A stretch of DNA of 64,000 bases, taken from assembly GCF_001314995.1 (NCBI RefSeq), contig NZ_CP012938.1, positions 1,984,001 to 2,048,000 of the forward strand. Direction: 5' to 3'. Source of the stretch: Bacteroides ovatus (GTDB lineage: Bacteria > Bacteroidota > Bacteroidia > Bacteroidales > Bacteroidaceae). Within the stretch, counting starts at the first letter, position 1; the number at the start of each line of letters is the position of its first letter. The position numbers and the translations under genes are program-made. Shown here one piece after another: positions 6,814 through 52,718 of the stretch. A model generated the notes under the pieces. It had not been told where the DNA came from. It ran no database searches and saw only the letters and a program-made list of their open reading frames with translations.

Positions 6814-7278
6814 TTATTCCCGATTCATCAAACGATGTTCTGCCATCTGTTCGAACTTTGTTCCCGGACGACCATAATTGGCATACGGATAAATGGAAAT
6901 ACCACCACGAGGAGTAAATATTCCCGTTACTTCTATGTATTTGGGATTCATCAATCGGATAAGATCTTTCATTATGATATTCACACAATCTTCATGAAAG
7001 GCTCCATGACTGCGGAAACTGAAAAGATAGAGTTTCAAACTCTTACTTTCTACCATTTTTATATCAGGAATGTAGCTGATACGTATTTCGGCAAAGTCCG
7101 GCTGTCCGGTAATAGGACACAGACTTGTGAACTCCGGGCAGTTGAAACGTACCCAGTAATCATTTTCAGGATGCTTATTATCAAAGGCTTCCAGTACTTC
7201 AGGAGCATAATCTTGTTTATACTCGGTTTTTCTTCCTAATAAGGAAAGTTGGTCTTTTAATTCTGTCATTGCACTCAT
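6814..7278 (-). CDS. queF: NADPH-dependent 7-cyano-7-deazaguanine reductase QueF
   Basis: 154 residues, the short unimodular QueF form of the tunnelling fold. Reduces the nitrile preQ0 to the amine preQ1 with two NADPH, in queuosine synthesis. [16 protein letters not shown] carries the nucleophilic Cys that forms the thioimide, and [13 protein letters not shown] is the QueF signature that binds cofactor; [11 protein letters not shown] holds the substrate-binding His/Glu region. The start could be 7278 (AGG about 9 nt upstream) or the ATG at 7269. The related queC and VUT transporter genes lie upstream on the same strand but are separated by a 549-bp gap full of repeats, so queF probably has its own promoter. 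Confidence 0.95.
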
Positions 7279-7470
7279 TAACTACAACCTCTACTCTAAA
7301 CAAAAAAACGCATTTCTTCTTTCACCTATCACCGTCCTGCCTCAAACGCCTTATTCATCAAGGTTTTAGTGGTGAAGGATTCATTTTATAACCTATCACC
7401 GCATCTATCACCTATCACCATCAACTCTTATCCTACGTTTGCTTTCTCCTCATCTTACTTGTTACGGTGT

Positions 7471-7620
7471 GTTTCATTGCCTGAAACAATGTGTTTCCCG
7501 CCTTGAAACAAAGTGTTTCATTACTTGGAACTTATAGTTTCAAGCGTTAGAAACTTTAGTTTCCTACCGTTGAAACTTTAGTTTCTCACTGATGAAACAA
7601 CAGTTTCAAGCTGTTGAAAC
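7471..7620. repeat. Array of seven palindromes with exact 22-bp period
   Basis: Palindromes of 17-18 bp begin at 7471, 7493, 7515, 7537, 7559, 7581 and 7603, each exactly 22 bp after the last. Each has arm GTTTC, a 7-8-nt variable centre and arm GAAAC; the third has one change (GGAAC). Centres all differ, for example attgcct, cccgcct and ctaccgtt, while the arms are kept. Spacers between units are 4-6 nt, and neighbouring units can also pair across them (GAAAC-TTTA-GTTTC). A 22-bp period is not a multiple of three, so this is not coding. Function unknown. Confidence 0.9.
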
Positions 7621-7680
7621 TAATCTAAGCCAATACATTCCGGACAGAAACTACTATCATTTATTAATTAGAACTTACCG

Positions 7681-7795
7681 GTGACAATAGATGTGACGGC
7701 AAAATGTCAAATTTAGCTGCTGTCACTACTTGCTGTCACAAACTAGAAATCTTATAATCAAACATTTATCTACAACAATGTGACAGATGACAGCA
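7681..7795. repeat. Cluster of GTGAC/GTCAC inverted repeats (possible mini-element)
   Basis: GTGAC words at 7681 and 7693, GCTGTCAC at 7718 and 7732, then GTGACAG at 7780 and TGACAGC at 7787. The segment from 7731 to about 7794 begins TGCTGTCAC and ends TGTGACAGATGACAGCA, which can form nested hairpins. It may be a short decayed mobile repeat or a binding-site cluster; nothing decides between them. Confidence 0.5.
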
Positions 7796-7810
7796 AAAAA
7801 ACGCATTTTA

Positions 7811-7826
7811 ATCTCTATGTAGAGAT
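7811..7826 (-). terminator. Candidate terminator of queC
   Basis: ATCTCT-atgt-AGAGAT hairpin just after the queC stop. On the minus strand it is followed by AAAATGCG and then seven T. The stem is short and AT-rich, so it is a weak candidate. Confidence 0.4.
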
Positions 7827-7827
7827 A

Positions 7828-8487
7828 TTATTGATTCTTACTTTTTAAATACTTTTCCAATCCTTCCCGACGCAATGTACAAGCCGGGCAATGTCCGCAA
7901 CCATCTCCCTGAACGCCATTATAACAGGTCAAAGTCTCGGTGCGAATCAGTTCCAATACCCCCAGTTCGTCGGCCAATGCCCATGTTTCTGCCTTATCAA
8001 TCCACATCAAAGGGGTATGAATCACAAATTGTTCATCCATAGCCAGATTGAGAGTTACATTAAGAGATTTGATAAAGGCATCACGGCAATCGGGATAACC
8101 GCTGAAATCTGTTTGAGAAACTCCCGTTACCAAATGATTAATACCACGTTCACGGGCATATACTGCTGCGATACTTAGAAAAAACAGATTACGTCCCGGA
8201 ACAAAGGTATTAGGAACGCTATCTGCAGGTTTTTCCTGATCCATCACCATCGTAGTATCGGTCAATGAATTATGACCTAACTGTCCGATAAAGGAAACAT
8301 CCATCACATCAAATTCCACTTCCGCTTTCCGGGCTATCTCCCGTGCAAGCTCCACTTCTTTCTGATGCTTCTGACCATAAAGAAAACTCAAGGCATATAC
8401 TTTCTTAAAGTTGCGTTTTGCCCAAAACAAACAAGTGGTAGAATCCTGCCCACCACTAAACACAACCAATGCTGCTTCTCTATTCAT
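7828..8487 (-). CDS. queC: 7-cyano-7-deazaguanine synthase QueC
   Basis: 219 residues. ATP-dependent conversion of 7-carboxy-7-deazaguanine and ammonia to preQ0. The PP-loop ATPase motif [15 protein letters not shown] is at residues 8-22, and four zinc-binding Cys lie near the C-terminus in [19 protein letters not shown]. Length is typical. It starts 8 bp after the stop of the VUT-family transporter gene and is certainly co-transcribed with it. QueD and QueE are not in the window, so the pathway is completed elsewhere or from imported precursors. Cytoplasmic. Confidence 0.96.
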
Positions 8488-24232: not shown

Positions 24233-24886
24233 TTAATACTCCTCAATGACTGTATTTCCAAAAATATCCTTTTTAATAATTTTCCCATGACCGTTACCAT
24301 ATTCAATTATTTCGTTTCCAAAAATATCTTTTTTAATAGTTGTTCTATTCCCCTTATCATCCTCGATAATAGTATTCCCAAAGATATCTTTTGTAATCGT
24401 CTTTCTATTACCTTTGTCATCGCGAATAATAGTATTTCCCAGAATATCTTTCTCTATAGTTTTTCTATTACCCTTATCGTCCCGGATAATGGTATTTCCT
24501 AGAATATCTTCTTCAATAGTCTTTCTATTACCTTTATCATCACGAACAATGAAATTTCCTAAAATATCCTCTTCGATAGTCGTTCTATTGCCTCTATCAT
24601 CACGGATAATGATGTTCCCCAAAATATCCTTTTCAATAGTCTTTCTATTGCCTTTATCATCACGAATGATGATATTCCCTAAGATATCCTTTTCAATAGT
24701 CTTTCTATTACCATTATCATCACGGATAATGATATTACCTAAAATATCCTTTTCAACAGTCTCTCTCCCTTGGTCAACTCCCGAATACTCATAATTATCT
24801 TCAACAAGATTTGCACCATAGCCCTTTATTATATAAGGAGCCAAAATAAACTGGGCAACAAACAGGATAAATAAAATCTTTTTCAT
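24233..24886 (-). CDS. Secreted protein of 20-residue tandem repeats
   Basis: 217 residues. A signal peptide (MKKILFILFVAQFILAPYII) is followed by about 20 linker residues, then eight full copies and one partial copy of a 20-residue unit, KDILGNIIIRDDKGNRKTIE. Copies differ at a few positions (I/T/F after GN; K/N/R before GN; K/E at the start), and the last three are the most divergent (KDIFGN, IIE). The regular D-I-x-G-N and D-D-x-G-N turns suggest a beta-solenoid or beta-roll, with possible Ca2+ sites at the DDxGN loops; this is inference. I do not recognise the family. TACTTTTG promoter box about 24 bp upstream. The IS1182 element lies upstream of it. Confidence 0.75.
   Translation of the reverse strand: MKKILFILFVAQFILAPYIIKGYGANLVEDNYEYSGVDQGRETVEKDILGNIIIRDDNGNRKTIEKDILGNIIIRDDKGNRKTIEKDILGNIIIRDDRGNRTTIEEDILGNFIVRDDKGNRKTIEEDILGNTIIRDDKGNRKTIEKDILGNTIIRDDKGNRKTITKDIFGNTIIEDDKGNRTTIKKDIFGNEIIEYGNGHGKIIKKDIFGNTVIEEY
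24236..24777 (-). repeat. 60-bp in-frame tandem repeat
   Basis: About nine copies of a 60-bp unit inside the secreted repeat protein. Central copies are nearly identical at the DNA level, which makes copy-number change by slippage or recombination likely. Confidence 0.85.
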
Positions 24887-52638: not shown

Positions 52639-52718
52639 CTCACTACGATGAGAAAAAATACTCATCGCCATGAGAAAAATTTCTCATTATAATGAGAATC
52701 TTTTCTCATCGTAGTGAG
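52639..52718. repeat. Array of four palindromes with exact 22-bp period
   Basis: Fourteen-bp palindromes start at 52639, 52661, 52683 and 52705, exactly 22 bp apart: CTCAC-TACG-ATGAG, CTCAT-CGCC-ATGAG, CTCAT-TATA-ATGAG and CTCAT-CGTA-GTGAG. The 8-bp spacers are A/T only. Arms are kept and centres vary, as in the GTTTC/GAAAC array at 7471-7620, but the arm sequence is different. It fills part of the 295-bp gap between two genes; the rest of that gap shows nothing else. Confidence 0.9.

Follow-up and report, generated by a model that had tools for sequence, protein, structure and literature searches.

A palindrome array with a 22-bp pitch between queC and queF of Bacteroides ovatus is one copy of a dispersed intergenic family

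The window, a stretch of 64,000 nucleotides (G000:C1:1984001-2048000) from the 6.47-Mb single contig of a Bacteroides ovatus genome (G000), holds between queC and queF a row of seven short palindromes, flanked on either side by further repeats (Table 1). Indeed, the GTTTC starts listed in the initial annotation (7471, 7493, 7515, 7537, 7559, 7581 and 7603) are all present, the six intervals are exactly 22 bp each, and the seven centres are all distinct, as had been claimed. Its description of the arms as GTTTC and GAAAC holds for six of the seven units, which are exact GTTTC-N7/8-GAAAC, while the unit at 7515 ends in GGAAC; likewise, a 4-nt spacer, which it had given for the array, is found in the last three spacers, the first three being 5 nt long. 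The switch from 7+5 to 8+4 (centre plus spacer) thus lies inside the queC-queF array and leaves the pitch at 22 bp. A GGAAC arm at the last 7+5 position, as in Unit 3, is also found in three other queC loci (L058, L059 and L063).

Table 1. Features of the queC-queF gap and the second palindrome array, in window positions
Feature	Position	Strand	Description
queF	6814..7278	-	Pfam PF14489; downstream neighbour of the array in the direction of transcription
Flanking repeat A	7303..7425 (approximate limits)	.	TATCACC motifs; homologous copies near other arrays
Palindrome array	7471..7620	.	Seven units, pitch 22 bp
Unit 1	7471..7487	.	GTTTC-ATTGCCT-GAAAC
Unit 2	7493..7509	.	GTTTC-CCGCCTT-GAAAC
Unit 3	7515..7531	.	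GTTTC-ATTACTT-GGAAC, right arm variant (one mismatch)
Unit 4	7537..7554	.	GTTTC-AAGCGTTA-GAAAC
Unit 5	7559..7576	.	GTTTC-CTACCGTT-GAAAC
Unit 6	7581..7598	.	GTTTC-TCACTGAT-GAAAC
Unit 7	7603..7620	.	GTTTC-AAGCTGTT-GAAAC
Flanking repeat C	7684..7803 (approximate limits)	.	TGTCAC/GTGACA motifs; homologous copies near other arrays
queC	7828..8487	-	Pfam PF06508; upstream neighbour of the array; stop codon 208 bp from the array
Second array	52639..52718	.	Four units CTCA-N6-TGAG with A/T-rich 8-nt spacers, 22-bp pitch; member of a dispersed family

The comparison with shuffled DNA that had been proposed for this array was run, and its spacing is far more regular than that of 2000 dinucleotide shuffles of positions 7279-7827: the longest chain of equally spaced GTTTC comprises seven members against a maximum of two, and six N7/N8 palindromes are observed against a maximum of one. 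Over the whole window, GTTTC-N6-9-GAAAC matches seven times, six of them inside the array, and this count of seven was reached in none of 100 whole-window shuffles. A search of Rfam over the array returned no family at the gathering threshold, only miRNA and snoRNA matches with E 0.11-0.3, far under the cut-offs. A CRISPR array is ruled out by the spacers of 4-5 nt; the neighbours are queC and queF.

Is the array a singular structure or a common one? In G000, the pattern GTTTC-N6..9-GAAAC-N3..6-GTTTC gave 63 forward and 66 reverse matches and the reversed control none. Counting from the matches up to 5.05 Mb and from about 0.8 Mb read directly (window included), we found at least 22 array places in this genome, 19 clear and three degenerate (L029, L030 and L037), and the set of units differs from array to array. 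The array at 7471..7620 is therefore one copy of a dispersed, intergenic family; in 17 of the 150 arrays that were parsed, more than half of the array lies in a called ORF, which may be a spurious small one. Other copies adjoin uxuA, cysS, fumarase-like, epimerase and TonB-receptor genes, and the 40 neighbouring proteins that were scanned are of many different kinds. Among open-licence papers, searched by title and the start of the abstract, we found no description of these arrays.

In the genus sample, the GTTTC pattern matched 57 of 99 genomes with 0 to 123 forward matches each; the reversed control gave few matches, yet more than the pattern in G068. A pattern also admitting GGAAC arms, at 8+4 spacing, matched 44 of the 99. 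The order sample yielded matches in 25 of 295 genomes, 14 of them with a single match that looks like chance, and strong signals outside the genus came from two families, f87 (G285, 82+76 matches) and f105 (G202, 19+23). The arm pattern thus exceeds the reversed control in other genera of the order sample; since those searches used these very arms, the excess alone does not show arm conservation there. Among the matches listed by a separate scan across named taxa, for which no control was run, Bacteroides, Phocaeicola, Parabacteroides, Porphyromonas, Mediterranea, Prevotella, Chryseobacterium and a Treponema MAG are represented, together with a Deltaproteobacteria MAG whose units are irregularly spaced and a Vampirovibrionales MAG with one place.

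What is kept in a unit is best seen from the lengths of its parts. Of 57 consecutive exact arm triples from G000 loci, most of which were chosen by a pattern allowing pitches of 19 to 25, 38 have centre and spacer lengths of 7+5, 12 of 8+4 and three of 7+4, with rarer combinations of 8+5 (two), 9+4 (one) and 10+5 (one). The sum that yields 22 bp occurs in 50 of the 57 triples, against 33.4 expected if the two lengths were independent, and this observed count was reached by none of 20000 permutations; contigs of other genomes gave 204 of 266 against 157.6 expected, in a set picked with an N8 pattern and hence biased. Centre and spacer lengths compensate each other, holding the pitch at 22 bp. 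The pitch is mostly 23 bp in the Treponema and Prevotella contigs and 21 bp in G208 and G377. GTTTC opens 110 of the 150 parsed arrays and GAAAC closes 114. The unit is therefore to be read as GTTTC-N-GAAAC and not as GAAAC-N-GTTTC, and the family unit is GTTYC-N7/8-GRAAC repeated at 22-bp pitch. The change from GAAAC to GGAAC makes up 65 of 125 single-arm variants, so that the tolerated arm change is concentrated on one position. Outside arrays, 464 kb (the window and a 400-kb stretch) contain no N7 and three N8 palindromes, no excess over other gap lengths.

Close relatives might have lacked the array entirely, a possibility that the initial annotation raised against its own reading and that was not borne out. 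Of the queC DNA found in 87 of 99 genus genomes, we took the 30 best-scoring loci, which were thus found through queC and not through the arms. An array lies 3' of queC in all 11 loci with a queC identity of at least 83% (G000 and ten relatives), and is absent, also with relaxed GTTYC/GRAAC arms, from the other 19, all with a queC identity of at most 81%. Over the 11 loci, 144 of 176 arms are exact. In five loci (L056, L058, L059, L060 and L063), which differ in unit number and whose MAFFT alignment was partly anchored by the arms, the mean pairwise identity is 0.962 for the arms, 0.639 for the centres and 0.744 for the spacers, compared with 0.947 for queC (60 sites only), 0.904 for queF, 0.73-0.78 for the linkers, 0.866 for repeat A and 0.793 for repeat C. 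The arms are thus more conserved than the flanks and the centres less, while the lengths compensate to 22 bp, which bears out the proposed constraint on arms and spacing. The accompanying claim that the variable centres speak against tandem duplication was not supported: in L061 and L062, adjacent units are identical to one another (TTACTGTT), the mark of a recent 22-bp duplication, and arrays can therefore grow by duplication, with the centres diverging afterwards.

Sites are shared incompletely between genomes. At least five of 12 arrays examined in G043, and at least one of nine in G029, the queC one, match an array site among the G000 loci that were fetched. At the orthologous site of L017 and L211, most interior units are without counterpart and the flanks are about 91% identical, and at the cysS-HAD gap, among 12 loci with both genes placed, G000 and G085 carry an array and the 240 bp shown of the other ten have none. 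Arms and pitch persist while the centres and the number of units change. As separate observations, two array-less queC loci, L079 and L084, contain a 22-bp-periodic repeat with GTCCGAC/GTCGGAC motifs at ~800-910 of either locus, some 600-700 bp from queC, and the cysS-HAD gap of G094 holds a 22-bp direct repeat (GTTGGGAAAGGTTAGC..., L235 1306-1393).

By blastn, the array flanks show no homology closer than ~48 bp, except for L015, L022 and L024, whose common flanks abut their arrays (some copies being inverted), and for the insertion sequence described below; apart from the latter, 16 of 19 compared G000 arrays have no array-edge sequence in common. The distance between repeat A and the array is 52 bp in the window; for homologous stretches it is 57-58 bp in L017 and 51 bp in L044. 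Homologues of repeat C are found near the arrays of L028, L018 and L025. Elsewhere in the window, positions 24315-24766 consist of 60-bp (120-bp) tandem units in 7.4 copies.

G000 carries five copies of a 2.8-kb element, distributed over four sites. Every site has one copy that ends no more than ~20 bp from an array; at L037, where two copies stand in tandem, the other one does not. With its orfA and orfB (NF033516), it is an IS3-family element, and it has an IS110-type ORF as passenger. The latter belongs to the RNA-guided transposase family, is a relative of IS621 and ISCro4 (NCBIfam IS110), is convergent with orfB in the copy at L011 2489-5310, and was seen only in the G000 copies. The IS end was found in seven of 99 genus genomes at 30 places, which represent fewer insertion events since L281 and L283 are homologous and L274 and L279 are in tandem. 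A GTTYC/GRAAC array is present in 24 of 29 scorable IS flanks, against none of 174 windows of the same loci and, as background, three of 2340 windows of the 400-kb stretch. The remaining five flanks have no such array: inspection by eye revealed CTTTCC/GGAAAG palindromes in two (L278 and L282) and none in L263, L275 and L279. An arm can be read in 23 of the array flanks (all but L271), and in every one of these the distance from the IS end to the first clear GRAAC/T arm, modulo 22, is 9-13, 21 or 0 bp; in six cases that arm is one or more units away. The IS end thus falls within an array arm or at the border of one. The outer IS ends share the trinucleotides AAA in L025, GGA in L011 and AAC around the tandem pair of L037, as for a presumed 3-bp target duplication; at L030 no trinucleotide is shared, and the IS is instead bracketed by a duplicated array segment of ~45 bp (8180-8245 and from 11066 onward), longer than a target duplication.

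At the 25 IS places outside G000, an IS3 ORF is present in 16 and an IS110 ORF in none, several of the remainder being contig ends, and the IS3 transposase is therefore the likely chooser of the target. The IS110-type protein was rejected as targeting agent, its ORF being confined to the five G000 copies. We also rejected the array as a part of the IS, as 18 of 22 G000 array places have no IS and the units are not the same in arrays next to different IS copies. No link to the arrays is apparent for an IS66 beside the array of L024, its other copies (L042/L043 and L045) not being near parsed arrays.

How do these arrays compare with known repeats? The BIME/REP arrays of enterobacteria and pseudomonads, described as targets of IS3- and IS110-family elements (PMC2817692, PMC1525189), are similar in being dispersed extragenic rows of short palindromes of variable length that serve as IS targets (PMC2817692, PMC1525189). 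In contrast, the arrays described here have a strict 22-bp pitch, 5-bp arms and free centres, and unlike BIME/REP their orientation is undefined because the unit is symmetric; by eye, no GTAG-type motif of the kind given for REP sequences in PMC2817692 stands constantly beside the palindromes in the array units. The BrickBuilt MITE of Porphyromonas gingivalis is described as a 23-nt tandem repeat with one consensus, AGAYCATARTATCCTCTCRTRTG, and no spacers, between a leader and a tail (PMC4596501); the name also appears in PMC10969869. It likewise belongs to Bacteroidales, is intergenic, has a repeat of nearly equal length (23 nt) and is tied to mobile DNA (PMC4596501), but here the pitch is 22, only arms and pitch are constant, and the consensus is unrelated to AGAYCATARTATCCTCTCRTRTG. 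The element described above finds its counterpart in IS1397, ISKpn1 and ISPsy8, IS3-family elements reported to target REP sequences, i.e. palindromic extragenic repeats (PMC1525189); here, host phylum and repeat are different, and the element lands within an arm of a 22-bp unit or at the margin of that arm.

The window holds a second array with another pair of arms (Table 1). Its CTCA pattern occurs at six G000 places and in 23 of 99 genus genomes, with the control matching as often or more in seven of the 23. Across 21 copies (window 52639-52718 and L305-L324) there are at most four units, 11 copies have all eight arms, and many have common end sequences (CAGNNTATTCTGACAAGG-like, inverted in some). 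Their gaps are convergent in ten cases, tandem in ten and divergent in one (p 0.0014 against background), and they lie mostly at the 3' ends of genes. In a periodicity scan over lags of 15-40, the GTTYC family gave lag 22 (60 cases) or 23 (eight), and the CTCA family lag 22 (11); among 14 other periodic stretches, some of which may be coding, lag 22 occurred six times (including L029, a degenerate GTTYC array) and lag 21 four times. Further 22-bp-periodic arrays with palindromic cores were seen at L038 14732 (ACTATAGT), L024 8612 (GGATATATATATCC) and L218 3810 (TATTAATA). Two unrelated arm families with one pitch raise the question of what sets the 22 bp. It is conceivable, though we consider it unlikely, that the pitch is a common chassis of several palindrome families in one genome that are unrelated in sequence (GTTYC/GRAAC, CTCA/TGAG and the single ACTATAGT/GGATATATATATCC cores). 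Each might have a dedicated half-site protein, or a single scaffolding or chromatin-like machine measuring out two helical turns might organise them all; Bacteroidota would then possess a hitherto undescribed system for organising or insulating the chromosome, with a parasitic IS homing on its lattice.

Do the arrays act as DNA or as RNA? Of the three earlier readings of the array, a DNA-binding array, an RNA with repeated hairpins and a domesticated repeat, the first fits best. Rows of hairpins in 3' untranslated RNA, which would end transcription, stabilise the mRNA or bind an RNA-binding protein, appear distinctly improbable to us. Folding is indeed much more stable for both strands than for shuffled sequences (z -6.25 and -6.78), as any palindrome row would show; the median distance from an array is 107 bp to a stop codon and 192 bp to a start codon, divergent gaps are avoided by the CTCA family (1/21), spacer ends covary, and compensation is seen in six of 17 doubly changed units. 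However, the single-mismatch units in tandem gene contexts comprise 22 G.U, 25 A.C and 15 transversions, so that G.U is not preferred over A.C and the wobble test lends the RNA reading no support on the gene strand. Moreover, the gap classes of the GTTTC arrays (24 convergent, 67 tandem and 14 divergent) do not differ significantly from those of the background (52, 190 and 65; p 0.13), as judged with a simple ORF finder on the 105 of 150 arrays that could be classed (17 overlap an ORF and 28 have a neighbouring gene on one flank only). The sense strand shows no T bias in the middle of the spacers (273 T, 311 A), no terminator-like site was found at the array, and no Rfam family reached threshold. 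A local operator regulating queF or queC would fit the position of the array between both genes in G000 and 3' of queC in ten relatives; we give it next to no credence, because unrelated genes flank the other copies, which rules out an operator of these two genes in particular, and 19 of 30 queC loci have no array. Very improbable, too, is a role as parS-like ParB sites or as core sites of a tyrosine recombinase with a variable 7-8-bp crossover region, which arms around a core of this kind resemble. The parS consensus, TGTTTCACGTGAAACA, has the same arms, GTTTC/GAAAC, around a 4-nt centre, and lies near the origin. In G000, two copies with one mismatch stand close together at 4.22-4.24 Mb, and parS is not known to form 22-bp rows, whereas the arrays are spread round the chromosome, away from these sites, and their centres are 7-8 nt long in 55 of 57 G000 triples and never 4. 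Arms of 5 bp are also short for a recombinase, and no tyrosine recombinase is found among the 40 neighbouring proteins.

A weightier alternative, which we nevertheless hold to be rather unlikely, is a non-autonomous mobile or selfish repeat, REP- or MITE-like, in which a transposase or recombination machinery reads arms and pitch and both spreads and re-amplifies units that have no function for the host. The dispersed and patchy copies, the replacement of most interior units between the well-conserved flanks of L017 and L211, the gain or loss at cysS-HAD, the common flanks abutting the arrays of L015, L022 and L024, and the short CTCA arrays with their common ends all speak for it. Against it stand the array flanks, which beyond those three loci and the IS lack close homology, and the arms kept at a fixed site in all 11 loci with at least 83% queC identity. 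A RAYT transposase (Y1_Tnp, PF01797) has a match in six of 27 genomes, including four of 15 array-rich ones (G012, G043, G285 and G202), and is absent from the other 11, G000 and G085 among them, which also speaks against the mobile reading; a REP system with RAYT was rejected on this ground. Tentatively, and with somewhat less than even confidence, we favour a BIME-like Bacteroidales element, in which rows of half-site pairs serve a putative cooperatively binding protein in a local architectural or boundary role. Each unit would present two half-sites, GRAAC and its reverse complement, to a putative dimeric DNA-binding protein, and the dimers, lined up on one DNA face at intervals of two helical turns, may bind cooperatively along the row, which would account for the constancy of arms and pitch and for the freedom of the centres. 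REP and BIME sequences bind gyrase, IHF or polymerase I. The resulting nucleoprotein rod could act between genes as a local architectural or boundary element, like BIME-2 with gyrase in E. coli.

Some observations do not follow from such a half-site lattice. The ends of the spacers (S5) are complementary in 63% against 33% expected, and positions 2-7 of the N8 centres in 48% against 36%, with z-scores that overstate the effect, as many units are related by descent; six of 17 doubly changed units are compensated. Independent half-sites do not predict this, while pairing or template switching would, and template switching or occasional cruciforms are a possible cause. The patchy distribution among species, the low sharing of sites with G043 and G029 and the pitch of 23 or 21 bp elsewhere also count against the lattice.

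In summary, some common gut bacteria carry many arrays of this kind. Since arms, pitch and centres can be altered singly, a protein lattice can readily be tested against drifting mobile DNA. The insertion sequence landing at the array arms provides a natural probe for the arrays and extends the homing of insertion sequences on extragenic palindromes to Bacteroidales.
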